Origin: a virus
DNA length: 40,713 nucleotides
IMG/VR virus record: IMGVR_UViG_3300044539_000138
Coordinates: 1-40,713 of that record
Reading direction: 5' to 3' (one strand)
Part shown: positions 5,649-32,927 of the stretch, one piece after another
Layout: every line of letters begins with the position of its first letter
Position numbering within the stretch: the stretch's first letter is position 1
The notes under the pieces: generated by a model
What the model was told of the DNA's origin: nothing
Seen by the model: only the letters and a program-made list of their open reading frames with translations
The model's database searches: none
Translations under genes and position numbers: made by a program

Positions 5649-6659
5649 TTAGGTTTGAGGTTCAAGGACTTTAACAGCCTCTACAAGCTGCTGAGGAGCA
5701 AGGTGAGCGTATCGTAAGGTGACAGCTAGGGTCTTATGACCCAGCCACTCCCTCACAGTGAGGATAGGGATGTTGCGTTGAACAAGGCGAGAGGCACAAG
5801 TGTGACGCAAGGCATGAGGAACAAAGTCTGCATCGTCCTGCAGACCCATCTCCTGTTGAACTTGCGTCCACTTAGCGTTGAGTGATGACTGTTTAACTTC
5901 AAAAGGGAAGAGAGCATCAACAAGGGCATTGCGATCAATCATCATCTCCTTGACTCGCTTAGTCATGGGAATGGAACGTGATCCACCTCCCTTGGTATCC
6001 CAGAAGGTCACTAGACTCTGAGACCAATTCACATCAGCCCATGTCAACCTGAGAGCCTCAGAGACACGACATCCAGTGTCTACAAGGAACAAGCACAGCT
6101 CAGCGAGGTAAGGACTCTTAGCCCCCATAAGCCTAAGCAAGGACGCTTCCTCCTCGTCTGTGAGGAACCTGATGCGATGGAAAGGCTCAGCCTTACGTTC
6201 AATCACAGGAAGTGTCGTGATCCACCCACGAGAGTGAGCAAACCTAAGCATCTTGCTGAGTGCTGCAAGCTTCCTGTTGATCGTGGAGCCTTGGTTCCCC
6301 TTAGCTACTAAGTCAGCTACAAAGGCATCAACATCTCCCAAGGTGACGTTCTTGAACTCTAGCTCAGGACAGAAGAAGTCAACAACTGCTGAGCCATTGA
6401 GAACTGCTGTCTTCTCTCCCTTAGTACCTTTCCAGACACGATAGTAGACAGAGCTGAACAGGTGACCCCAAGTGTGAGGTGTTACGTTATCATGCACAGG
6501 CTCAATAACCTTAACCTCCTTGGGAGGCTTTACGATCTCTTGCTGAGCAGCCCACTCAAGGGCATCAGGTTGAGCTTTGAAGTCTTTACGGAATCGCTTG
6601 CCGTTGACCATGACAGAAGCTTGATAGCGTCCGTTAGTACGTTGGATGATAGAGGACAT
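5649..6659 (-). CDS. int: Tyrosine recombinase / integrase
   Basis: From the ATG at 6659 the protein has 336 residues. An N-terminal AP2-like arm-binding beta region (IIQRTNGRYQASVMVNGKRF) is followed by a SAM-like core-binding domain and the catalytic domain with the full set Arg198, Lys223, His282, Arg285, His308, Tyr317 (TGCRVSEAL, PHALRHT, EWLGHK, YAHL). The frame stays open to 6860, but the extra sequence is unlike the family. It would catalyse site-specific integration of the phage genome. It lies upstream of the RNA polymerase, as in int-carrying marine T7-like phages, and downstream of a terminator, so it probably has its own promoter. The attP core was not identified. Confidence 0.95.
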   Translation of the reverse strand: MSSIIQRTNGRYQASVMVNGKRFRKDFKAQPDALEWAAQQEIVKPPKEVKVIEPVHDNVTPHTWGHLFSSVYYRVWKGTKGEKTAVLNGSAVVDFFCPELEFKNVTLGDVDAFVADLVAKGNQGSTINRKLAALSKMLRFAHSRGWITTLPVIERKAEPFHRIRFLTDEEEASLLRLMGAKSPYLAELCLFLVDTGCRVSEALRLTWADVNWSQSLVTFWDTKGGGSRSIPMTKRVKEMMIDRNALVDALFPFEVKQSSLNAKWTQVQQEMGLQDDADFVPHALRHTCASRLVQRNIPILTVREWLGHKTLAVTLRYAHLAPQQLVEAVKVLEPQT

Positions 6660-6895
6660 TTGTTTTTGGGTTGGTGTGTCTCGCAGACACAAGAGCACTC
6701 TCCTACAGATGAAATGGTGAGTCAACAATAAAAAGATAAAAGTTTCTGGGGTGAGAAAGTTGTTGACATAGGACAAAGTTTTACCAGTGAAATCTACATG
6801 GAGGAAGCTAGGCAAGGACGGAGGCAAGGACGTATGACTGTATCCCACTTTCCGTAACACCCAGCCACCAGTACCCCCAGAATCTAGGCACGAGA
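6660..6895. promoter_or_regulatory. Integrase upstream region with inverted and tandem repeats
   Basis: This is non-coding DNA between the integrase start and a terminator hairpin. It holds an inverted repeat, GTCAACAA (6721-6728) with TTGTTGAC (6760-6767), and a 12-bp tandem repeat GGCAAGGACGGA/GGCAAGGACGTA (6811-6834). Such repeats near an integrase gene are typical of regulator or arm-type integrase sites, making this the best candidate region for int control or attP. No tRNA-like core was seen here. Confidence 0.4.
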
Positions 6896-11438: not shown

Positions 11439-13142
11439 ATGGCAATCAAAACGAAGACAAAGGTTCCGCTTCTAGACCCTCAACTCAAGGACTTCAGGAA
11501 CTTCCTCTTCCTTGTTTGGAAGACCATCAACCTTCCTGATCCTACTCCTATCCAGTACGACATAGCTGAGTACATCCAGAATGCCCCTAGAAGGGCTATT
11601 ATTGAGGCTTTCCGAGGAGTTGGTAAGAGTTTCATCACAAGTGCCTTTGTCTGTCACCAGCTGCTGCTTAATCCAGACTACAAGTTCCTAGTGGTCTCTG
11701 CTTCCAAGGCTAGGGCTGATGACTTCTCCACCTTCACCCTCAGGTTGATCAATGAGATGCCTATCCTCCAGCACCTAAAGCCTCAGGATGAGCAAAGGAA
11801 CTCCAAGATAGCCTTTGATGTGGCTCCAGCTACTGCCAGTCACTCTCCCTCCGTCAAGAGTGTGGGTATTACTGGGATGCTCACTGGGTCTAGGGCTGAC
11901 TTCATCATTGCTGATGACGTAGAGAGTGCCAACAACTCCATGACTCAGGGCATGAGGGACAAGCTTGCTGAGAGTGTGAAGGAGTTTGAGGCTATTCTTA
12001 AGCCTGATGGTAAGATTATTTACCTTGGGACACCTCAGCTGGAGGAGAGTCTCTACAACAAGCTACAGGAAAGGGGCTATAAATGCCAAATTTGGACTGC
12101 TAGATACCCTGAGAAGGACAAGTTACCTTCCTATGGTGATAAGCTCGCACAGGTCATCCTCGACGCACTGGAGGCTAGTCCTGACGTAGCTGGTCACTCC
12201 ACAGATCCAAAGAGGTTTACCGATATAGACCTAATGGAGAGAGAAGCTTCCTATGGGAGGAGTGGGTTTCAGCTTCAGTTCCAGCTGGATACAACTCTTT
12301 CGGATATGGATAGGTATCCTCTTAAGCTTGCCGATCTTTCTGTGATGACCTTGAACCCTACGGATGCTCCTCAGAAGGTAGTGTGGGCTTCTGGGTTGGA
12401 TCAGGTGATTAAGGAGCTTCCTTGTGTTGGGATGTGTGGGGATAGGTACTATAGGCCGATGGTAGTCTCTTCTGATATGTGGATACCCTACGAGGGGTCT
12501 ATCATGTCTATCGATCCTTCAGGTAAGGGTAGGGATGAGACAGCCTATGCTGTGGTCAAGTACCTACATGGAATGCTGTTCCTGTGTGCCTCTGGAGGGT
12601 TTACCTCAGGTTATACTGATGAGACCCTAGAGGGGATAGCAAAGATAGCTAAGGCTCATTCTGTACAACAGATCGTTATCGAAGAGAACTATGGTGGAGG
12701 TATGTTTGCTCAGCTTCTTAAGCCAATCCTTGGAAAGATCTACCCAGTGACTGTAGAGGAGGTTAAACACTCTAAGCAGAAGGAACTCCGTATCATCGAT
12801 ACCATTGAACCTGTGCTCAACCAGCATCGGCTTATTGTGGATCAAAGGGTGATTGAAAAGGACTACAAGTCCAACCTTCATTTACCTCCAGACCAAGCAC
12901 TCCGTTATCAGTTGTTCTACCAGTTGTCTCGTATTACCAAGGATAGAGGGGCTTTAGCTCAGGACGATAGACTGGATGCCTTGGCTATAGCTGTCAGCTT
13001 CTGGACAGAAAGGATGGGACAGGACATTGATAGAGCTGTGGATGCTCAGAGAGACTTCATGCTGGATAAGGAGCTTAATCACTTCATGAGTGGAGTCTTT
13101 GGGGTCAAGAAGGAGCCTAAGGGTTGGTTACAAGGGTGGTAA
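11439..13142 (+). CDS. Terminase large subunit (T7 gp19-like)
   Basis: The 567-residue protein aligns along its length with T7 gp19 (586). Walker A is AFRGVGKSF (about residues 58-66), followed by VSASKARADD, HSPSVKSVGITGMLTGSRAD and Walker B FIIADDVES. The nuclease domain begins SIDPSGKGRDETAYAVVK and ends with DDRLDALAIAVSFW. It cuts concatemers and powers DNA packaging through the portal. Unlike T7 it is on the strand opposite to all other virion genes and separated from TerS by about 1 kb with a tRNA. AAAGGAA directly before the ATG is one of the few SD-like sequences, but its spacing is too short. Confidence 0.97.
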   Translation: MAIKTKTKVPLLDPQLKDFRNFLFLVWKTINLPDPTPIQYDIAEYIQNAPRRAIIEAFRGVGKSFITSAFVCHQLLLNPDYKFLVVSASKARADDFSTFTLRLINEMPILQHLKPQDEQRNSKIAFDVAPATASHSPSVKSVGITGMLTGSRADFIIADDVESANNSMTQGMRDKLAESVKEFEAILKPDGKIIYLGTPQLEESLYNKLQERGYKCQIWTARYPEKDKLPSYGDKLAQVILDALEASPDVAGHSTDPKRFTDIDLMEREASYGRSGFQLQFQLDTTLSDMDRYPLKLADLSVMTLNPTDAPQKVVWASGLDQVIKELPCVGMCGDRYYRPMVVSSDMWIPYEGSIMSIDPSGKGRDETAYAVVKYLHGMLFLCASGGFTSGYTDETLEGIAKIAKAHSVQQIVIEENYGGGMFAQLLKPILGKIYPVTVEEVKHSKQKELRIIDTIEPVLNQHRLIVDQRVIEKDYKSNLHLPPDQALRYQLFYQLSRITKDRGALAQDDRLDALAIAVSFWTERMGQDIDRAVDAQRDFMLDKELNHFMSGVFGVKKEPKGWLQGW

Positions 13143-13497: not shown

Positions 13498-13571
13498 GCC
13501 TTACTAGTTCAATGGTAGAACACCAGTTTTGTAAACTGGTTATCACAGTTCGATTCTGTGGTTCGGCTCCA
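13498..13571 (+). tRNA. tRNA-Thr(UGU)
   Basis: A full cloverleaf can be drawn: D-arm GTTC/GAAC, anticodon stem CCAGT/ACTGG with loop TTTGTAA and anticodon TGT (13530-13532), T-arm CACAG-TTCGATT-CTGTG, and an encoded CCA end. The acceptor stem GCCTTAC/GTTCGGC pairs at positions 1-3 and 6-7 but has two mismatches (T-C and T-T) in the middle. The discriminator base is T. It is on the plus strand behind TerL. It would read ACA codons; the mismatches may reduce function or reflect decay. Confidence 0.82.
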
Positions 13572-23321: not shown

Positions 23322-23807
23322 TTATTGTTTTTTAATCTTTAGAAACTCATAGAAAGACAATCCTAAATACCCAAAAGAGTCAATCTTACGAATGAAGGTA
23401 AAGCCTAGCCACTTGAGCCAGTTGATATGTACTGTGTTACCTTCGTACACACAATTACAAATGATATCATAATCCTCATGTAGCTGAGTTACCCAGAACT
23501 TAGAATGTCTAAGGAACTCCCTCTTGATATCAATGATCCCACTAGTCCCTAGAAGCCAGACACTCCCTATCTTAGGGGCAAGAGGGGCAACTCCAAAGAT
23601 AGCTATAGGCTTGTCACTGGTGTTAAGGATCGTCCAGCACCTGTCGCCACTTGCCTTAATACACTCCATAAGAGCCTGAATAGGGGGAACATCCTTCCTA
23701 CCTGATCGAATCTCTATCAGATCCTCATTCCTGAGCCGTGGAGCCACCCACAAGGCATCTTTAAGGATAGCCTTCCTGATGGTAGCGTTCCTGTACTTGT
23801 GGATCAT
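23322..23807 (-). CDS. Gp13-like protein with GNAT-type fold
   Basis: It is 161 residues from the ATG at 23807, which overlaps the TGA of the nozzle gene (TGATG); a longer frame to 23870 would overlap more. The segment NCVYEGNTVHINWLKWLGF matches T7 gp13 (VWVGNTSHIRFLKTIG), with the acetyltransferase-like end seen in this family. T7 gp13 is needed for virion maturation but its chemistry is unproven. Its place between gp12 and gp14 equivalents is the T7 order. Confidence 0.85.
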   Translation of the reverse strand: MIHKYRNATIRKAILKDALWVAPRLRNEDLIEIRSGRKDVPPIQALMECIKASGDRCWTILNTSDKPIAIFGVAPLAPKIGSVWLLGTSGIIDIKREFLRHSKFWVTQLHEDYDIICNCVYEGNTVHINWLKWLGFTFIRKIDSFGYLGLSFYEFLKIKKQ

Positions 23808-26800
23808 CAGCCCAGTCGTTGGTTGCGAGTCTGATACCAGCTCTCCCAATCCATACTGAGAAGTGAACAAGGGAAGGGGCTATCGTTATGAAGCTCAATA
23901 TCCACCATGTCGTTCTTAGCCATAACAGGGAACTTGAAAGCTCCGCTTACCAGCTCTCCTCTACCAATAGTAGCTCCTCCAGTGCCTAGACGAGCACCAG
24001 TAAACTTGTAGGTGTAGGTATCCCTGTACTTAGAGGTAACAAGAACCTTAAAGAAGAGGGAGTTGTTATAGGTGAGGTTTCCAGTCTTCACCTGAAGTCT
24101 ACCATCAGTAACTGCTATCTTACCCTGACCAGAAGCCTGTCTGATGAGGGGAGTAGAGAACTTGTAGAGCATATCGTAGGAGAGACCTACATAGAATGGA
24201 ACAGCTGTAAGGTCTCCTTGAGCCACAACAGAGGTATAGGAGAAGTTTGTGGTTCTGCTGACAGAGGTAACTCCACCAAAGTCAGCAAGGTTTACTGAGC
24301 CATAGCTGTCAAAGCGAGTCCCTGTAGCTTCCTCAAGCCTCCACCAAGCTGCTAGGTCAACTGTAAGTCCTACTGGAATATCAAAGAAGGAGACTCCAGC
24401 TCCTGAGTTATAGAGGTATGATCGTTCCGTAGGAGTAAGAACCCTCTTCCAGAATGCCATCTGATCCATAGATCCCTTAAAGTATGCTGGAGTATCAAGG
24501 TAGTAGCCTTCTGTAGTCCCCACAACGCTTGCAGGGGACTCTACAAGATCATAAAAAGTACTAGCTTGGTCATTCACTGACAAACGGAGCTTCCTATCAG
24601 AAGTATCAAACCAAACATTGATGAAATACCAAGTACCTACAACTAGAGCTGTAGATGTATCTGGTGTGTTGACATAAGAACCCCCTACAGGAGAGCCATA
24701 AGCCACAAGCTTGTTACCTGTACCACTAGTAAAGAGCTCAAACCCTCCACCCTCAGCATCAGCATTGCTAAGAATAGGTGTAAAAGGAACAAGAGCATCT
24801 AGGTTAATCCACCCAGAAAATGCAAAGCTCCCAGACCCAACAGTTGTTTCTGCTGATGTAGAGGCTTCTAGGTACTGACCATTACCATTAAAGGAAGCTG
24901 CATAGTTACCTTGGAAGATATTAAGAACCCTACCACCTGTAGCTGTGGTTGCAGATGCATCCCTAGTGACAACCTGAAGAGTATCTGCTCCAGTGTAAGC
25001 ATAGGGGAGGGTGATCTTAGTGGTATCAGAGGTTGCGTTATAAAGGAGAGTCGTAGCTGAGTTGGTGAGCCGACGATCAAGGCGAGTAGAAAAGTCACTA
25101 TAAGCGTCTTTAAAACCTACCTCAATGTTTACCTTCTCAAGGAAGACACCATCAGCACGTTTAATGGTTAGGTACAGGGTAGACTCAATGAACTCAGCAC
25201 TGAGAATCTCACACCCTACATCAAACTCCCACTTGCTCCATGATGACTGTATTTTCTCTTCTCCGCTATAGAAGTACTTGTAGATGTAGCATCCATTCTT
25301 AAACCCATCAGAGAGGGCAACTACGATCTGTTCGTTGTTGGAAGTAGCAAGCTTTACAATACTTCCTTCAATGTACTTTGAAACAGGAGCTGTAACATCA
25401 AGACCATCAAAGAGAGAGGTAAGAGGAGATACAAAGTACTCCATAACACCTGAGTACTCTCCGCGAACAAAGGGGAACAATACGTTCTTACCTACGTTGA
25501 TAGCCTTGGTGTAACTATCATTTGAGAACTCAGTAGTCTGTTGGATAGAAACAGTCTTAGGGGTAAGGATGTCAGCTGAGGTTAGAGAGAACTGAGACTG
25601 ATCTGAGAACAGCAGGAGCTTCTCAGAGAAAGGAATCATGTTGTAGATGATAGAAACCTTAGAGGAGGTAACAGCTACATCAATAGGGTCAGCATCCAGC
25701 AGAGACTGAAGGGAAGTCCTGAAGAAGTTAAAGAAACTTGAAGACTCAGATAGGGAGATATTTTCACCAGAAGCAAAGGTAAGCCTAGATCTGAATAGAG
25801 TAATATCATTGATAGTGGTTCCTACAAAGGAGGGGTCTGGGTTTGAATCAACTGTTCCATACTTCCTCTCTCCCCACGCTGGTAAAGCATAGCTGCTTTG
25901 GGTAGACCCATCAGCCTTAGCAAACAGGAACTGACCACTAGCAAGCCTGATAAGAACAAAAGGCATTGTGGAAGAATCCAGCTTGTACTTAATAGCTGGT
26001 GCTACTGTCTCTTTCCACCTTCCTGTTCCGTTATTATCAAGAGCTGAATCTGGAACAAAAGTTACCCAGTAGTCATCCTTAACTCCATCAGTTCCTCCTG
26101 TTATTTTTACAAGCTGTCCTCGTCTTCCTGCACTAGGAAGAGAAGCAAGAGAGGCTGCTGTATCATTGGCTACTTTACCATATGTATTACCAACAGAATC
26201 AGTGTATGTAAGAGATACCTGTCCACCATCTTTTTTAGTAACGTAAATAATGTTTCCGTATCCTCTAGTAACATTATAAAGTGAATTAATAGAGGCATTT
26301 GCCAGCATTGCATTTTTAAGTGCTTCAGCAATTTCTATAGTACTTGCAGCTCCTGCTGTTGATCCTGAAACAAACGTAGCAGTGTAATAAGTAGCCCCTA
26401 CAGCTAGGTTAATGCTGTAAGTAACATTGTAGGCTCCTTGAAGGATATGCAAAGTAGCCATACTGGTGAAAGCAGCAGTCGTAGCTGCATCCATAGCCAC
26501 TGTTTTATCTGTATTAAGAACAAAGGTATAATCAGCAATGGTTACACACCTTATGTTATCTCTGTTAGCTCCTGTTAGGTAGGTATACCCATGAGGGGCA
26601 TTAACAGTCTTCTCAGTCCCAGCTAAGTCAAAGACCCTTATAGACCCATCCTGAATAAGGACATTGTACCTCTCAACAGAGTCACGATTGATTAGGTGAA
26701 CAGCTGGAGTGTTTGCAGTAGCTGTAGTCAGCTTAGCAATATGCCTAGTTGGATTCCTCTTGATTAACCCCTCAACAATAGAGGAGTACCCATTAACCTG

Positions 26801-26890
26801 TTCAACAGCCTGTGTAGCGAACTTAAGAGAATCAGCCTGTTGGCTAACTCCATTGATTAGGTTTGGTTGGTTAGTAGAGACTAAAGGCAT
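23807..26890 (-). CDS. Tail tubular protein B / nozzle (T7 gp12-like) with LamG-like domain
   Basis: The protein has 1027 residues against 794 for T7 gp12. It begins with the gp12 signature (NQPNLINGVSQQADSLKFAT, GLIKRNPTRHIA) and continues with nozzle-type beta propeller segments (SRLTFASGENISLSESSSFF). Residues about 660-880 are an inserted LamG/concanavalin-like domain (SFNGNGQYLEAST, GSFAFSGWINLDAL, WYFINVWFDTSDRKLRLSVN, GSMDQMAFWKRVLTPTE). Gp12-like sequence resumes near 885 and ends WYQTRNQRLG. It forms the tail nozzle; the insert may bind sugars on the host surface. Confidence 0.95.
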   Translation of the reverse strand: MPLVSTNQPNLINGVSQQADSLKFATQAVEQVNGYSSIVEGLIKRNPTRHIAKLTTATANTPAVHLINRDSVERYNVLIQDGSIRVFDLAGTEKTVNAPHGYTYLTGANRDNIRCVTIADYTFVLNTDKTVAMDAATTAAFTSMATLHILQGAYNVTYSINLAVGATYYTATFVSGSTAGAASTIEIAEALKNAMLANASINSLYNVTRGYGNIIYVTKKDGGQVSLTYTDSVGNTYGKVANDTAASLASLPSAGRRGQLVKITGGTDGVKDDYWVTFVPDSALDNNGTGRWKETVAPAIKYKLDSSTMPFVLIRLASGQFLFAKADGSTQSSYALPAWGERKYGTVDSNPDPSFVGTTINDITLFRSRLTFASGENISLSESSSFFNFFRTSLQSLLDADPIDVAVTSSKVSIIYNMIPFSEKLLLFSDQSQFSLTSADILTPKTVSIQQTTEFSNDSYTKAINVGKNVLFPFVRGEYSGVMEYFVSPLTSLFDGLDVTAPVSKYIEGSIVKLATSNNEQIVVALSDGFKNGCYIYKYFYSGEEKIQSSWSKWEFDVGCEILSAEFIESTLYLTIKRADGVFLEKVNIEVGFKDAYSDFSTRLDRRLTNSATTLLYNATSDTTKITLPYAYTGADTLQVVTRDASATTATGGRVLNIFQGNYAASFNGNGQYLEASTSAETTVGSGSFAFSGWINLDALVPFTPILSNADAEGGGFELFTSGTGNKLVAYGSPVGGSYVNTPDTSTALVVGTWYFINVWFDTSDRKLRLSVNDQASTFYDLVESPASVVGTTEGYYLDTPAYFKGSMDQMAFWKRVLTPTERSYLYNSGAGVSFFDIPVGLTVDLAAWWRLEEATGTRFDSYGSVNLADFGGVTSVSRTTNFSYTSVVAQGDLTAVPFYVGLSYDMLYKFSTPLIRQASGQGKIAVTDGRLQVKTGNLTYNNSLFFKVLVTSKYRDTYTYKFTGARLGTGGATIGRGELVSGAFKFPVMAKNDMVDIELHNDSPFPCSLLSMDWESWYQTRNQRLG
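24251..24913 (-). other. LamG-like domain inserted in the nozzle gene
   Basis: This segment encodes residues about 660-880 of the nozzle protein. The order of motifs (FNGNGQYLE, FSGWINL, WYFINVWFD, DQMAFWKRVLT) is that of laminin-G-like jelly-roll domains that often bind carbohydrates. The nozzle gene exceeds T7 gp12 by about this length. Confidence 0.8.
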
Positions 26891-26901: not shown

Positions 26902-27474
26902 TTACCAGCGTTCAAGAACTCTGGCTACATCGTAGGTATCAAATACGTTAAAATCACCAGTCTCAGCGTCAAACTGCTTCATAATAACAAGAGCCGTAAG
27001 CTCATCCTGCTGGAGCTGCTGAGAAAGCTCAGTAGAACCAACCATCCTCTGCTGGAAGACACGAGCAGCCTTAGCAGTGATGAAAGTCCTAAAAGGTTGT
27101 GGAAGATCATCCCACTCAAGGAGACGAACAACGTCAGCCTTAGGAGCCTCTGTAAAAGTAAAGGTATGGTTCTTCCTATCGTAGAGTTTACCACTACGTT
27201 GAACCACATCGATGTTGGGGTAACGATCTTTATCGACATCTACCCTGATGATGTCACTGGAAATTGGGATTGTACCATCAACAGCTAGTGTTAATGGAAA
27301 ATCACTATCGGTATTACAATGCCAACCTATGGCTTGTGTGTTCCTAGTAGCCTCGTCAAGCGTAGCTAATGCAATAGCAGAATCTACTGTAGCTTCATCA
27401 ATCTGGTTAATAGGAGCTTCCCCGATAGAGGAAAGCATTGAGTTGATTGCCTCTAATTTTGTACTAAGCGTCAT
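26902..27474 (-). CDS. Tail tubular protein A (T7 gp11-like)
   Basis: It is 190 residues from the ATG at 27474 (T7 gp11 has 196); the frame opens at 27510 but those codons lie in a terminator hairpin. The N-terminus (LEAINSMLSSIGEAPINQID) is the gp11 signature, followed by DEATRNTQAIGWHCNTD and, near the end, RVFQQRMVGSTELSQQLQQD. It joins the portal to the nozzle. The leader is only the terminator tail (CCTTTTGCATATG). Confidence 0.93.
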   Translation of the reverse strand: MTLSTKLEAINSMLSSIGEAPINQIDEATVDSAIALATLDEATRNTQAIGWHCNTDSDFPLTLAVDGTIPISSDIIRVDVDKDRYPNIDVVQRSGKLYDRKNHTFTFTEAPKADVVRLLEWDDLPQPFRTFITAKAARVFQQRMVGSTELSQQLQQDELTALVIMKQFDAETGDFNVFDTYDVARVLERW

Positions 27475-27486
27475 ATGCAAAAGGAA

Positions 27487-27561
27487 AGGCCAACCTGAGT
27501 TGCGAGTCAATCTTGAAAGTAAAATGAAGAAAACTTTCAGGATTGAGGCTCAGGTTGGCCT
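27487..27561 (-). terminator. Long hairpin terminator between capsid and gp11-like genes (T-phi analogue)
   Basis: The outer arms are 13 bp (27487-27499 with 27549-27561). An inner 5-bp stem (27108-side CAATC at 27508-27512 with GATTG at 27541-27545) and a 7-bp stem TGAAAGT/ACTTTCA (27514-27520 with 27533-27539) enclose a 12-nt A-rich loop. On the minus strand the stem is followed by TTCCTTTTGC. T7 has its late terminator T-phi at the same place, between genes 10 and 11, to limit expression of downstream tail genes relative to capsid. Confidence 0.88.
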
Positions 27562-27584: not shown

Positions 27585-28775
27585 TTAGCTGATTGCAAGC
27601 TGGACGATACCTTCAGGACGAAGGACACCATGCCCCATCGCATACTTGGCAACCATGATGGTTCCCTGAAGTTCGATGGCATACTCACTCTCAACAGCCA
27701 GATCCATGAGCTTCACTGTACCAATCGAAGCCTTATGGAAGATAAGAGCAGCGTTGTTTGTGAAGTCACCATTGTAGGCGTTGTTCTGACCAGACTCAGA
27801 AGCAACCACTCCAGTAGGAAGGTTGTTGCTCTTGACGATCTTGATACCAGCAACCATTGCAACGTCACCAGTGACGAAGCTACCAACTGGGCTAGGCTTG
27901 CTAGGATCAGCGAGAGCCTGAACAATTGCGTAGTACTGAGCTGGCTTGACGATGCAGACGCGATCCTCGGAAGGAATGTTCTGTTCATCAAGAGCCTGAG
28001 CAGCCTCATAGATCTTGGCCACGAGAGTGGAACCAGATGTAAGGAGAGTGCTGTTGACCAGCTTGATACCCGAACCATAAGCAACGCTAACAGTCTGAGC
28101 AGAGAGAGCCGAAGCAGGAGCAACGTCAACGACGAATGTGAAGGTCGTGGTCGAGGGGATCGATGTGATCGTCCAAGTACCATTAAGCTTCAAGTTCTGT
28201 CCTGTTCCACCTGTGAGGGTGACCTTACCACCAAGTCCAAGACCATGAGCAGCAGCTGTAGTAGCCGTGATCGTAGTGGAGGAGTAGGTGAAGGTAACAC
28301 CAGCAAACGAGGTCTGCGAGATGTTGCTTCCCTTGGTAGCACCAAGAACAGCTGTCTGCATCACCTGACGATCAAAACGCTGAGCCAACGCACGTCCAAT
28401 TTCAGTCGTATAGATAGAACGGACATCGTAGTGGTTCATTGCCTCGTCGATGTTGGCGATGAATGAAGTAGCGAGGAGAAGACCATCGATGTTGATAACA
28501 ACCTCGTTAGCCTTGATTGCACTCTGATAGCCGTTTCCAGAATCAGTGATGCGCTCACCAGCGACATGATATTTAGCAGAAGCAGTACCAGTCACAGGGA
28601 ACTGTGCAGACTTGCCATTGCTGATTGTGCGAACAGTGTGAAGATCCTTCATCACGTTGCTTGTTGTGAAAGAGGTAAGAACCTCTCCTGCGAATTTCTT
28701 GAGGAAAAGTGCGCTAGAATCTCCAGATCCATTGACCTGACCGATACGAGACGGACTTGTGTTGCCGTTTGCCAT
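27585..28775 (-). CDS. Major capsid protein (T7 gp10A-like) with inserted beta domain
   Basis: The 396-residue protein has strong T7 gp10A matches: GEVLTSF, SGKSAQFPV, IDEAMNHYDVRS, IGTVKLMDLA and MVAKYAMGHGVLRPEG (HK97 fold). Residues about 155-235 (including ITATTAAAHGLGLGGKVTLT and LNGTWTITSIPSTTTFTF) replace some 20 T7 residues with an FCCH-like beta domain common in other phage structural proteins. The insert probably projects from the capsid surface. The gene lies behind the lysis cassette and is followed by a strong terminator hairpin. The leader is AT-rich (AATTTAATTATATG) with no Shine-Dalgarno. Confidence 0.96.
   Translation of the reverse strand: MANGNTSPSRIGQVNGSGDSSALFLKKFAGEVLTSFTTSNVMKDLHTVRTISNGKSAQFPVTGTASAKYHVAGERITDSGNGYQSAIKANEVVINIDGLLLATSFIANIDEAMNHYDVRSIYTTEIGRALAQRFDRQVMQTAVLGATKGSNISQTSFAGVTFTYSSTTITATTAAAHGLGLGGKVTLTGGTGQNLKLNGTWTITSIPSTTTFTFVVDVAPASALSAQTVSVAYGSGIKLVNSTLLTSGSTLVAKIYEAAQALDEQNIPSEDRVCIVKPAQYYAIVQALADPSKPSPVGSFVTGDVAMVAGIKIVKSNNLPTGVVASESGQNNAYNGDFTNNAALIFHKASIGTVKLMDLAVESEYAIELQGTIMVAKYAMGHGVLRPEGIVQLAIS
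28071..28313 (-). other. FCCH-like beta domain inserted in the capsid gene
   Basis: This segment encodes capsid residues about 155-235. The pattern ...TTAAAHGL..G..V.L.GG......LNGTWTI..I.STTTFTF.. is the repeat unit seen in many phage tail and fibre proteins (ubiquitin-E1 FCCH-like fold). The flanking residues align with T7 gp10A, so this is an insertion relative to T7. Confidence 0.72.
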
Positions 28776-28923: not shown

Positions 28924-29475
28924 CTAATTATTCCAGTATCTTGAAAACTTATTCTTCTCTTGTTTCATTAAGTAGACAGGTCTGCGTCTAGCATACACTC
29001 CTTGACCATCCCTATCACTAGCTGAACCAGCTACAGCATCAGGAGAAGTATTAGCCTCTACAGTCATTAGGTAGGCTCCCTTTACCCTATCTACAAACCC
29101 TACATGGGCTACTCGTTGCTTAGATGGGAAGTAGATACCAAACACATCCCCAGCCTTAAGATCAGTAAACTTGACTGAGTTCTTCCTTACTTGATCAGGA
29201 GCCCATGCTGAGACTGGGGCTTGTACACCCTCAAGGTGGTGCATATAGCTAATAAAAGAAGCGCAATAAGGACTGCCAAGATCGACTCCTGTGAATCTGT
29301 TCCAAGTATCAATGTGGGTAGATCTGTTATATCCATGCTCTCGTTCAGATAGATAACCTTTAGCTGTGTTTATCAGCTCTGTACCCTCACCAGATGCGTG
29401 GAGGAGTGTACATAAGAGGAGTGCTACAAGTTGCGTAGCAAGATGAAGACAGAAACGAGAAGTGTAGTTACCCAT
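28924..29475 (-). CDS. Endolysin, NlpC/P60-CHAP-like with signal peptide
   Basis: In this 183-residue protein, residues 11-27 are hydrophobic (LATQLVALLLCTLLHAS) with a plausible cleavage after HAS, so export by the host Sec system is likely. The catalytic domain has Cys71 (SPYCASFISYMHH), His124 (RVAHVGFVD) and Glu140/Asn142 (TVEANTS), the Cys-His-polar triad of CHAP/P60 peptidases. It would cut peptidoglycan peptides. The start overlaps the holin candidate by 52 nt and no other ATG precedes the domain. It sits in a spanin-holin-endolysin cassette ahead of the capsid gene. Confidence 0.82.
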   Translation of the reverse strand: MGNYTSRFCLHLATQLVALLLCTLLHASGEGTELINTAKGYLSEREHGYNRSTHIDTWNRFTGVDLGSPYCASFISYMHHLEGVQAPVSAWAPDQVRKNSVKFTDLKAGDVFGIYFPSKQRVAHVGFVDRVKGAYLMTVEANTSPDAVAGSASDRDGQGVYARRRPVYLMKQEKNKFSRYWNN

Positions 29476-29765
29476 AGGATCAAGCTAATAGTAGCAGCTT
29501 GAATCGGAGTAAAGTCTTTCTCCCAGCCAACCTTAAAAAAGTCACCAAACCATAGGTAATACAGGAAGTAAGAAAGAGACCCAGTAATAAGAAGAAGGAA
29601 GATGTTCCAGTTAAGCACTGAGAGTACCCCTAGCTCTAGAGTAGCTGCTGTAGGGTCTAGGAACCTAATAACACCTTGCCCTACTATGAAGAGGACAAAA
29701 GCACTTGGAGCAAGAATGACTAAATCACTCCACGTTTTAATGAAGTCTTTAATCTTATCTACCAT
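29424..29765 (-). CDS. Three-TM protein, class I holin candidate
   Basis: This 113-residue protein has three hydrophobic helices at about 17-37 (VILAPSAFVLFIVGQGVIRF), 48-70 (VLNWNIFLLLITGSLSYFLYY) and 88-110 (ATISLILWVTTLLVSVFILL). Size and topology fit class I holins. It is flanked by and overlaps a spanin-like lipoprotein upstream and an endolysin downstream, which supports a lysis role. No sequence family is recognised. With a secreted endolysin it may act as a pinholin or timing protein. Confidence 0.68.
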   Translation of the reverse strand: MVDKIKDFIKTWSDLVILAPSAFVLFIVGQGVIRFLDPTAATLELGVLSVLNWNIFLLLITGSLSYFLYYLWFGDFFKVGWEKDFTPIQAATISLILWVTTLLVSVFILLRNL

Positions 29766-30328
29766 ACCTTCATGGGAACAAGAGCCTTAAGGTAGATACC
29801 AAAACCAATCAAAGCTGCAATACCAGCTAGAATGAGATAAAGGACAATGATGTGGAGGTTCTTCTGAGCAATTACCTTACCTTGATTGGCAATAGTAATA
29901 ACAGAAGACTGGTAGTCTTTAATCAGCTGGTTGTTAATCTCGTATTGATTCTTACGTTCCTGATCTACCACTAGGAGATGCTCAGAGAGTACCTTGTTCT
30001 CCTCAGTAACCTGAACGAGCTTAGCGTATTCTTCAGTGCCTACATTAACCATGAGAGACCCTTTGTACGTCTCTGGAAGCGTGATAAAAGAAGAAGCCCC
30101 ACTACGGACAGGCTTAATGACAACCCTAAGGTTAGGGGGAGGTACGAGTTTTTGAGTAGCTTCATTGTATTCCTTAGCAAGCTCTACCCTCCCCAGTACC
30201 AGACTATCCCCTGTGGCATAGACTGACCTAGAGAGAGCTTCACTTGTCTTTTCCAGATACTTGGGGGTAGCTGCACATCCTGTTAAGAGGAGTAGTGAAG
30301 CTAGAAGTATTTGGATGGGGGGATTCAT
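29759..30328 (-). CDS. Unimolecular spanin-like lipoprotein
   Basis: The 189-residue protein has an N-terminal lipoprotein signal with lipobox LLTGC (Cys18) and a C-terminal transmembrane helix at about 157-181 (IIVLYLILAGIAALIGFGIY). A Gln/Glu-rich, partly coiled-coil periplasmic part (VTEENKVLSEHLLVVDQERK) lies between them. An outer-membrane anchor plus an inner-membrane anchor in one chain is the design of u-spanins such as T1 gp11, which fuse the two membranes in lysis. It overlaps the scaffold stop and the holin-candidate start. This implies a Gram-negative (diderm) host. Confidence 0.75.
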   Translation of the reverse strand: MNPPIQILLASLLLLTGCAATPKYLEKTSEALSRSVYATGDSLVLGRVELAKEYNEATQKLVPPPNLRVVIKPVRSGASSFITLPETYKGSLMVNVGTEEYAKLVQVTEENKVLSEHLLVVDQERKNQYEINNQLIKDYQSSVITIANQGKVIAQKNLHIIVLYLILAGIAALIGFGIYLKALVPMKVW

Positions 30329-31176
30329 TACAGAACAGAAGACATTTCAAGCCTACGCTCAACGTCCTTACGATAAGCAGAATCATTAGCGTAACGAGGA
30401 TCACTCATAGCCTTAACAACCTCTTGGGTAGAACGGAACTCCTGAACAGAGCTACGTCCAGTGGCGTTGCCTCCAATGAGCTGAGGAGCCTTACCATTCA
30501 CCTGAGTGTACTGAGCGTAGAGACCCTTGACTGCCATCTTAGCAGTGTTGATATCTCCACTGGATACAAGAGCATCGTAAGCCGTGATCTCTCCTGCTGT
30601 GAGGTTATTAACAGCCCACTTGGTCATTGCGGTGTAGGACTCTTCACCACCAGTCTCCTTGTACATAGCCTGTGTCTCACGTTCCTGAGTAGCTTGGAAA
30701 CCATTGATGTATTGACGTACAAGATCCTTAGGCAAGCCCATCTGCTCAAGCTTATCAAACGACTCAGGACTAAGCTCGCCCTTCTCATCCCACTCTTGGT
30801 GGAACGGAGTAAGATCGGTCTTGGAAACATCAGCAGGAGGAGCCTCCGCTTCCTCTCCTTCCTTTACTTGCTCAACCAGCTCGTCGGGTTTCCCCTCCGT
30901 TGGGGTTTCTGACTTGGCTTCTTGCTTGGGGGTACTGAGCTTTTTCTCAAGTTCCGAGTAGGCTTTGGCGAGGTCTTCGATACTTTTGAACTTTTCGGGA
31001 AGGGCTTCTGGTCGTTCTGGAAGAGGTGTGGGCTCTCCAACTTCAGGAGCTTGATCGCTAGGATTATCGATAGGCTGATTAACTTCTCCCTCAGGAAGGA
31101 GCTGATTGTTATCAGGAGTCGGAGCGTCTGCACCAGTTTCTCCTTCAGAAATAACGACACGATTGAATGAGGACAT
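30328..31176 (-). CDS. Capsid assembly scaffold protein (T7 gp9-like)
   Basis: The acidic 282-residue protein has a Pro/Glu-rich N-terminal half (PLPERPEALPEKFKSIEDLA) and a helical C-terminal half (LVRQYINGFQATQERETQAM and RKDVERRLEMS). Length and composition fit T7 gp9 (307). It is placed right after the portal gene. It guides procapsid assembly and is released before packaging. The leader contains AACCCAAACCAATATAA and no Shine-Dalgarno. Confidence 0.88.
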   Translation of the reverse strand: MSSFNRVVISEGETGADAPTPDNNQLLPEGEVNQPIDNPSDQAPEVGEPTPLPERPEALPEKFKSIEDLAKAYSELEKKLSTPKQEAKSETPTEGKPDELVEQVKEGEEAEAPPADVSKTDLTPFHQEWDEKGELSPESFDKLEQMGLPKDLVRQYINGFQATQERETQAMYKETGGEESYTAMTKWAVNNLTAGEITAYDALVSSGDINTAKMAVKGLYAQYTQVNGKAPQLIGGNATGRSSVQEFRSTQEVVKAMSDPRYANDSAYRKDVERRLEMSSVL

Positions 31177-31226: not shown

Positions 31227-32927
31227 CTATCCCTTATTTGAACTAACAGCAGGGGGAAGCTGTTGTCCAGATATTTGTTCGTATGTTGCGTTAGCAGCTT
31301 CAGGGGTAGCAGTAGCAATCTTAGAAGCAGCCTGAATACCAGCAGGAGCCATTTGACTCAGCATGGCCATCTGCTGCTGTTGCTGTTGTTCACCATCAAT
31401 CTCTTCAGCTGTCTTGATAAGACCTTCAGCATCGATACCTAGAGCAGCAGCCCTACGATTAAGGTACTCAGTAGCGTTAATCATCTTGAGAGCCTCAGCT
31501 CCAAAAGTCTGTGCAAGACCTTGGATAAACTGATCCAGCTTGGTCAGGTCATTACCCCTACCAAGAGCCTCAACACCAGTAACAATGAGAGGCTTGACTA
31601 GCTTCTTTGGAAGCTCAGGAAGCTTGCCCTGCTTAGTCAGACGATCAAGAAGGATGGTAACCAGTGGGAGCTGAAACTCCTGAGAAAGGATGCTGTAGGC
31701 TCCACCAAGAGAGGACTCAAGCTCCTGAGCCATGTAGCGAATCTCTTCAGCTGTAACACGCTCACCATTACGTTGAATGGCAGTGTTAAGGAGAAAAGCA
31801 AAGGAAAGTCTCTGTGTGATGTCTGCAATGACGCTGTTGACGATGGATAGATCAGCACGTTTTTCAACCTGTAGACTTGTAACGTCAGTTGCCTTACCAG
31901 AGATGAAGGCTCCATTCTTCGCATCAGCTAGATCCCTAATCTTGGTAGTACCAGTCGGGTCAACCATGAACACAACCTTAGAAGCAGCAGCTGTGGCTTG
32001 AATAACAGCCATAGAGAGAGCCTCAAGAGCCTTAAGGTCACCCATATACTCTTCAACAAACCCACGACCATAATCCTCACCATCGATACGGACAAGACGT
32101 AGTGCCATCCAAGGAAGCTTGTCTAGGGGGTAGGTTCCCTTGGTAGAAGGAATGATCTTCCCTGCGATCTCCTGATAGACTTCCCACTTCTTACCGTCCT
32201 CAGCAAGCATCACACAGGTATAGAGGTCTAGGTTTTCTTCAAGGCTATCTGGGCTCTTCTCTTTACCTTCTGAAACCTCTTCAGGATCATTCTCATTAAG
32301 GAATGCACGAATGTCAGCAGGAAGCATAGCTTCAGCTACGGACTCCTTGACTGCAATCTTAACTGCATTACCAGACTTGTCCCTCTTAACTCCAAAGCTA
32401 TCTAAGCGGAAGACACGCATACCTCCCTTTTCAGGGAAGTGAAGGAGGACGTTACCAGCTACGATCAGCTGACGGAGAGCCTCATAGGTAGAGACACGAA
32501 TGGAAGAGGATTCAATCTCCTTAGCAGCTGTACGCTCAATCTTAGAGAGAGCCTTCTCCATCTCTGTCTTAAGGGAGTCAAGCTCCTTAGGTTCAACATC
32601 AGGATTAGCTTCTTTACGGAGTTGATACTCGTCAACAGTAAGCCTGAAAAAGGGGGCATTAGGTGGGAGAAGAGCCAGCATCAACTTGGATGCAAGGTTA
32701 TTAACTCCACGAGCTCCAATGCTCTGGTAAGGGGTTGGGTAAATTGTAGAGTAAGAATGCCCCTGAGGAGGGACAAGCGTAGGGATGGTAAGCTCTGAGG
32801 AGTCCCTAGCCCTTCTAAGGACGGAGAATCGCTGAGTCTCTAAGGAAGAGTAGAGAGACTTAACTGATCCGTAATCATCCTCTTCAGTCTTCTCAGTGGA
32901 GATAGATGCTTTGTTGTAGTTAGCCAT
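31227..32927 (-). CDS. Portal / head-tail connector (T7 gp8-like)
   Basis: The 566-residue protein (T7 gp8 has 536) has the typical beginning (VKSLYSSLETQRFSVLRRAR, then ELTIPTLVPPQGHSYS) and core segments (GARGVNNLASKLMLALLPPN and ITQRLSFAFLLNTAIQRNGERVTAEEIRYMA). A polyGln segment lies near the C-terminus (GEQQQQQQMAML). It forms the DNA entry vertex and binds TerL and tail. It is the first of the portal-scaffold-lysis-capsid block. Confidence 0.95.
   Translation of the reverse strand: MANYNKASISTEKTEEDDYGSVKSLYSSLETQRFSVLRRARDSSELTIPTLVPPQGHSYSTIYPTPYQSIGARGVNNLASKLMLALLPPNAPFFRLTVDEYQLRKEANPDVEPKELDSLKTEMEKALSKIERTAAKEIESSSIRVSTYEALRQLIVAGNVLLHFPEKGGMRVFRLDSFGVKRDKSGNAVKIAVKESVAEAMLPADIRAFLNENDPEEVSEGKEKSPDSLEENLDLYTCVMLAEDGKKWEVYQEIAGKIIPSTKGTYPLDKLPWMALRLVRIDGEDYGRGFVEEYMGDLKALEALSMAVIQATAAASKVVFMVDPTGTTKIRDLADAKNGAFISGKATDVTSLQVEKRADLSIVNSVIADITQRLSFAFLLNTAIQRNGERVTAEEIRYMAQELESSLGGAYSILSQEFQLPLVTILLDRLTKQGKLPELPKKLVKPLIVTGVEALGRGNDLTKLDQFIQGLAQTFGAEALKMINATEYLNRRAAALGIDAEGLIKTAEEIDGEQQQQQQMAMLSQMAPAGIQAASKIATATPEAANATYEQISGQQLPPAVSSNKG

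Follow-up and report, generated by a model that had tools for sequence, protein, structure and literature searches.

The major capsid protein (MCP) of an uncultured T7-like phage was found to carry an inserted segment at residues 155-235, right after the spine helix; the insert is real, its location is correct and it is not a product of chance. The segment was modeled as a small beta-barrel, and it was proposed, with slightly better than even confidence, that this barrel is an outer, built-in decoration domain, present once per subunit and engaged in weak, many-copy binding of a polymer or glycan. The window, meaning the whole stretch of DNA that was analysed, comprises 40,713 bases of one uncultured virus contig. 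Its MCP is called W below, and L numbers denote the compared loci. The features of the capsid gene and its neighbours were as follows.

27585..28775, minus strand: MCP of the gp10A family, HK97 fold, 396 aa (PF21703, phrog_267, Foldseek)
28338..28430, minus strand: spine helix of the P-domain, residues 116-146 (AlphaFold secondary structure)
28071..28313, minus strand: inserted segment, residues 155-235 (alignments with and without the insert)
28092..28307, minus strand: predicted beta-barrel domain core, residues 157-228, endosialidase-barrel/FCCH type (profile at 59.6 bits, AlphaFold, Foldseek)
27984..28034, minus strand: first A-domain helix after the insert, residues 248-264 (AlphaFold secondary structure)
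26902..27510, minus strand: tail adaptor, gp11-like, directly downstream of the MCP gene (phrog_446, 5.7e-55)
30328..31176, minus strand: scaffold/capsid assembly protein, gp9-like (PF05396, 8.4e-21)
31227..32927, minus strand: portal (head-tail connector), gp8-like (PF12236, 3.8e-87)

The MCP gene has genes of the portal, scaffold, adaptor and nozzle as its neighbours. Its product was recognized as a gp10A-type protein by PF21703 (Gp10A-like) with an E-value of 1.4e-63 and 215.7 bits against a curated cut-off of 27, the match covering both halves of the protein in two stretches split by the insert, and by phrog_267 'major head protein' (1.1e-76). The HK97 fold was assigned by Foldseek, in which the capsids of P-SCSP1u, Kp9, E1004 and T7 were at the top (8i4l, E 1.7e-27; 3j7v, TM 0.70-0.77 by target length). 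The solved MCPs of these four phages aligned to both flanks of W and none of them to the middle. T7 gp10A and P-SCSP1u gp19 share the family and fold of W and can be aligned throughout both flanks, but they have a short loop of ~35 residues where W carries the domain. The first-pass annotation had described T7-like flanks around an inserted middle, and both this description and its coordinates proved right for the minus-strand reading frame.

The protein was ~77-80 residues longer than its closest insert-free relatives. Four relatives in IMG/VR (L001, L002, L003 and L122) bear the insert and matched W over the full length at 64-68% identity, whereas a sister clade (L048/L050/L191/L199 and L004/L198) lacks it, with proteins of 319-321 aa versus 396 and an identity of 63-64%; the sister relation held on a tree built without the insert columns. 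Among ~145 compared MCPs, the barrel domain was present in W and these four closely related proteins only. The possibility that the segment is common to the whole gp10 family, which the first-pass annotation had named as refuting its claim, was therefore ruled out by its restriction to one clade. An assembly or frameshift artefact was rejected as well, the insert being in frame on four further contigs, and no other protein of the window was found of which the insert could be a copy. Isolate-phage records matching W numbered 1358, with 0 above 60% identity; the best-listed matches came in two pieces spanning ~300-345 codons and therefore left no room for an insert. When inserts only were searched against isolate phages by tblastn, W gave nothing at E 1 and L003 gave cyanophage fibres at E 0.1 or worse and nothing better, and the domain copy of L083 gave no match. 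All matches from a genome scan for prophage relatives and the host were insert-free or distant.

By sequence, the nearest kin of the insert appears to be the endosialidase barrel. PF12195 (End_beta_barrel, phage endosialidase barrel) was matched by L122 (E 1.1e-6, 29.0 bits), L001 (E 3.1e-6, 27.5 bits), L002 (E 8.7e-5, 22.8 bits) and L003 (E 0.04, 14.3 bits), all below the gathering cut-off of 35, and no match was listed for W itself. The window insert matched virion and tail-fibre families in PHROGs, namely phrog_5838 (5.7e-7), phrog_9998 (2.4e-5) and phrog_529 (2.5e-4). Further, a profile of 12 copies of the domain from non-capsid phage proteins scored 59.6 bits against W over residues 157-228, when the best domain score among 2000 shuffled inserts was 11.9 bits, and it picked exactly W, L001, L002, L003 and L122 from the ~145 MCPs. 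Since the 12 copies had been gathered by similarity to the inserts, this result is a consistency check and not an independent proof; the independent support comes from PF12195 and PHROGs. The domain recurs in large proteins of other uncultured phages (L082-L099), as seen when a stretch from one of these, GDVITISGATGVEQLKLNGTWTIASIPNSTTFTFVV, is set against the window insert, GGKVTLTGGTGQNLKLNGTWTITSIPSTTTFTFVV. A search of solved structures with the insert sequence returned chance antibody-type matches alone. The claim that a gp10A-type loop harbors a beta domain of a type known from other phage structural proteins was borne out.

The name 'FCCH-like', given to the domain in the first-pass annotation, was appropriate for the modeled fold, where UBA6 and UBA1 were retrieved by Foldseek, but among named families the endosialidase barrel comes closest. 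PF16190 (E1_FCCH) matched L003 alone, at 14.4 bits and E 0.04 against a cut-off of 29.5 bits, and W had no significant match to it by sequence. In UBA6 and UBA1, which are E1 enzymes, the FCCH region is a similar small barrel, and a functional link with the insert of W is not expected.

The AlphaFold model of the whole MCP had a mean pLDDT of 78, with strands across residues 161-215, and the domain modeled alone, together with its kin, formed a six-stranded small barrel with a core pLDDT of ~79-94; the two kinds of models concurred on a small barrel. The best PDB matches of the domain in Foldseek were the phi92 and K1F endosialidases and UBA6/UBA1 (probability 1.00, TM ~0.6 by query), with E-values for this small domain that were weak, 0.013 or weaker. 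The aligned parts are presumably the endosialidase barrel and the E1 FCCH region, as judged from family knowledge and the Pfam matches. Among viral models, cyanophage short tail fibres and structural proteins of uncultured phages were matched with a best E-value of 1.6e-4. Other small barrels, those of F1-ATPase subunits, were also retrieved, so the barrel fold alone is not diagnostic. The PF12195 barrel was both the best Pfam family for the insert relatives and the best solved fold match; however, it is a part of the tailspike enzyme in K1F and phi92, and a predicted domain of the capsid lattice, scoring below the Pfam cut-off, in W.

The insert was located between the spine helix and the first A-domain helix, in the G-loop/A-loop region, and not within the A-domain beta-sheet as a P22-type I-domain would be. 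An outer position of the domain on the shell is likely by analogy, since the decoration protein Dec of P74-26 contacts the G-loop from outside (PMC6775164) and the G-loop of R4C protrudes to the outer layer (PMC10276861). The alpha-claw of PhiM1 docks on loops equivalent to the insert site (PMC11440229).

It was also observed that the same site is used differently elsewhere in the family, where the loop length ranges from ~36 to 126 residues. The clade L125-L129/L137-L139 carries a different module there, rich in ITNPGSGYxxAPTVTxSGG (the 'GSGY' repeat), with kin among head-closure (neck), tail-fibre and baseplate-wedge families. A profile-profile comparison of the barrel with the 'GSGY' module, each profile holding only four sequences, revealed no kinship, and the idea of one diverged domain was discarded on that basis. 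Each insert type formed one fully supported clade and the tree separated the two, while the AU test of a joint origin (p 0.094) gave no rejection; two separate gains are therefore likely by these trees, not proven, and alternatively one module may have replaced the other. When IMG/VR was scanned again from the second clade, the same carriers topped the list, and no third barrel-type module was present among the matches listed, as judged from the listing and not insert by insert. The insert site acts like a plug-in position whose modules can be exchanged. Separately, a third group of gp10-type MCPs, an 18-member clade of the tree (L160, L165, L167-L170, L175, L177, L179-L181, L184, L186, L188, L190, L193, L194 and L196), had spans of 72-97 residues after the spine helix that were polar and unlike the barrel or the 'GSGY' module.

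The inserts differed much more than the proteins that carry them. W shared 34-41% identity with its insert-bearing relatives in the insert and 72-77% in the remainder. The backbones of L003 and L122 were the second-most similar (83%) and their inserts only 41% alike, when the L122 insert showed 68-70% identity to those of L001 and L002. With five sequences, the insert alignment rejected the backbone tree (AU 0.045; SH 0.24) and the backbone rejected the favourite tree of the insert (AU 0.012; SH 0.35), which is a modest conflict. In the second clade, L125 and L127 differed by 16 bases in 92 insert codons and by 4 in the other 314 (Fisher 7e-8), the codon changes being 8 nonsynonymous and 2 synonymous in the insert, and 0 and 4 in the remainder. 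The opposite pattern was seen between L125 and L126, with 1 base change in the insert versus 19 elsewhere. These sequence data, five sequences in the case of the first clade, point to an exchange or a fast change of the insert, and the modules may have been exchanged by recombination.

We proposed that the barrel would project from the shell exterior near the two-fold and quasi-two-fold contacts between capsomers. Assuming a standard T=7 shell with one portal, one module per subunit would give 415 copies; P-SCSP1u has 415 MCP copies (PMC10575957). A decoration domain built into the subunit in this way would bind, weakly and multivalently, to a polymer of the host surface or the environment, e.g., a glycan. 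The exposure, the copy number and any part in attachment or stability are deduced from homologous solved T7-like capsids and from evolutionary evidence of an indirect kind. Relatives of the module are for the most part proteins of the virion exterior, i.e., fibres, spikes and baseplate, and the barrel of the K1F endosialidase is one of three polysialic-acid binding sites and a hotspot for host discrimination (PMC12632334). Because of the exterior kin, the binding by the K1F barrel and the fast turnover of the insert, weak multivalent binding at the head surface was favoured over a purely structural role. The K1F type of ligand binding need not carry over to the insert, since the two are distant in sequence and E1 enzymes use the same fold for purposes unrelated to sugars.

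The main rival, which was considered rather unlikely, is that the barrel acts as structural cement, touching the neighbour subunit across the capsomer boundary and stiffening an otherwise undecorated T=7 shell. Most known insertions into the HK97 fold stabilise the shell (PMC5701804, PMC5957328), the G-loop region touches the E-loop of a neighbour in several phages (PMC6775164, PMC8538268), and T7, P-SSP7 and P-SCSP1u are without a decoration or cement protein (PMC10575957), and no cement protein was recognised among the annotated late genes of the window. However, no domain is present at the site in the sister clade or in most of the family, the insert diverges far faster than the surfaces against which it would have to pack, and another clade has an unrelated module there.

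It is improbable that the insert has no selected function and that the loop simply tolerates foreign, drifting modules. The range of loop lengths marks a permissive site, and the T7 loop after the G-loop was reported to make almost no contacts (PMC10635136); yet the module has stayed open and foldable in five divergent phages whose inserts share as little as 34% identity, it retains the family motif AHGL-x-x-G-x-K-V ... G-T-W/F, and the most abundant protein of the virion would be expected to lose a 20% extension that served no purpose. A domain facing inward with a role in assembly, e.g., on the scaffold or DNA, is scarcely probable: the spine helix spans the whole P-domain, the loop in the W capsid is placed by analogy and the insert of W is slightly basic (pI 9.4), but decoration proteins reach the G-loop/A-loop elements from outside in PhiM1 and P74-26, K and R number only 3 in 89 residues, and the named kin of the domain are mostly exterior (fibres, spikes).

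The capsids of T7 and several of its relatives are classic cases of a bare shell without decoration. Inserted domains in HK97-fold MCPs are already known; what is new, as far as the published accounts consulted show, is such a site in the T7-like family, together with its module of tail-spike type and the use of the position by a second module unrelated to the first. Since an extra barrel is present where relatives have nothing or a different module, the shell of the favoured reading, with its binding domains outside, probably bears exchangeable knobs on its surface, several hundred in number. Decoration is apparently encoded within the capsid gene, at a single site, by two unrelated modules in two clades, which gives structural virologists a naturally occurring comparison with which to test the purpose of capsid decoration. 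The sister pair that differs in the presence of the insert, the W clade and the L048/L004 clade, makes the question directly testable, and the site suggests a naturally proven high-copy display position on T7-like particles. More broadly, and held as a tentative idea of less than even probability, the loop that follows the spine helix in T7-like MCPs could be a natural display slot into which unrelated beta-modules of tails, baseplates and necks are recombined, turning the whole head into an evolvable binding surface.

The P22 I-domain, the T4 E-loop insertion and the Ig-like extension of T3 10B are likewise additions to HK97-fold MCPs (PMC5701804, PMC5957328, PMC13320782), and the first two act as shell-stiffening cement. 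However, their sites (the A-domain sheet in P22, the E-loop in T4 and the C-terminus in T3) and their domains differ from those of W, and a swap of unrelated modules at one site is not described in the published accounts consulted. The alpha-claw and alpha-paw of PhiM1 and P2_50 of Peru-2 are outer additions to capsids of short-tailed phages, as proposed for W (PMC11440229), but they are separate gene products; the claw and paw are helical, and P2_50 is Ig-like and found on pentons only.

The T7-like phage of the window encodes its own RNA polymerase, a family A DNA polymerase and an integrase. The first-pass annotation had supposed that no separate decoration gene is needed, and this stood for the annotated late genes, among which none was evident, the small ORFs having been scanned in part. 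The presence of the integrase and of one tRNA-Thr gene indicates that the phage is probably temperate. Other features of the window were as follows.

5649-6860, minus strand: integrase (phrog_1, 3e-59)
11439-13142, plus strand: large terminase subunit
13498-13571, plus strand: tRNA-Thr gene
23807-26890, minus strand: nozzle, gp12-like
28924-29475, minus strand: endolysin-like, part of a likely lysis set
29424-29765, minus strand: small membrane protein, part of a likely lysis set
29759-30328, minus strand: lipoprotein-like, part of a likely lysis set

The nozzle contained a laminin-G/concanavalin-type lectin domain at residues 668-822 (PF13385, E 9e-12), a further binding-type addition to a core virion protein in the same phage as the barrel insert. 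The likely lysis set (28924-30328, minus strand) lies between the scaffold and MCP genes; similar ORFs were found in the same order in L001 and L003, the latter having an extra dCMP-deaminase-like ORF. The large terminase subunit was encoded on the strand opposite to the remaining late genes.
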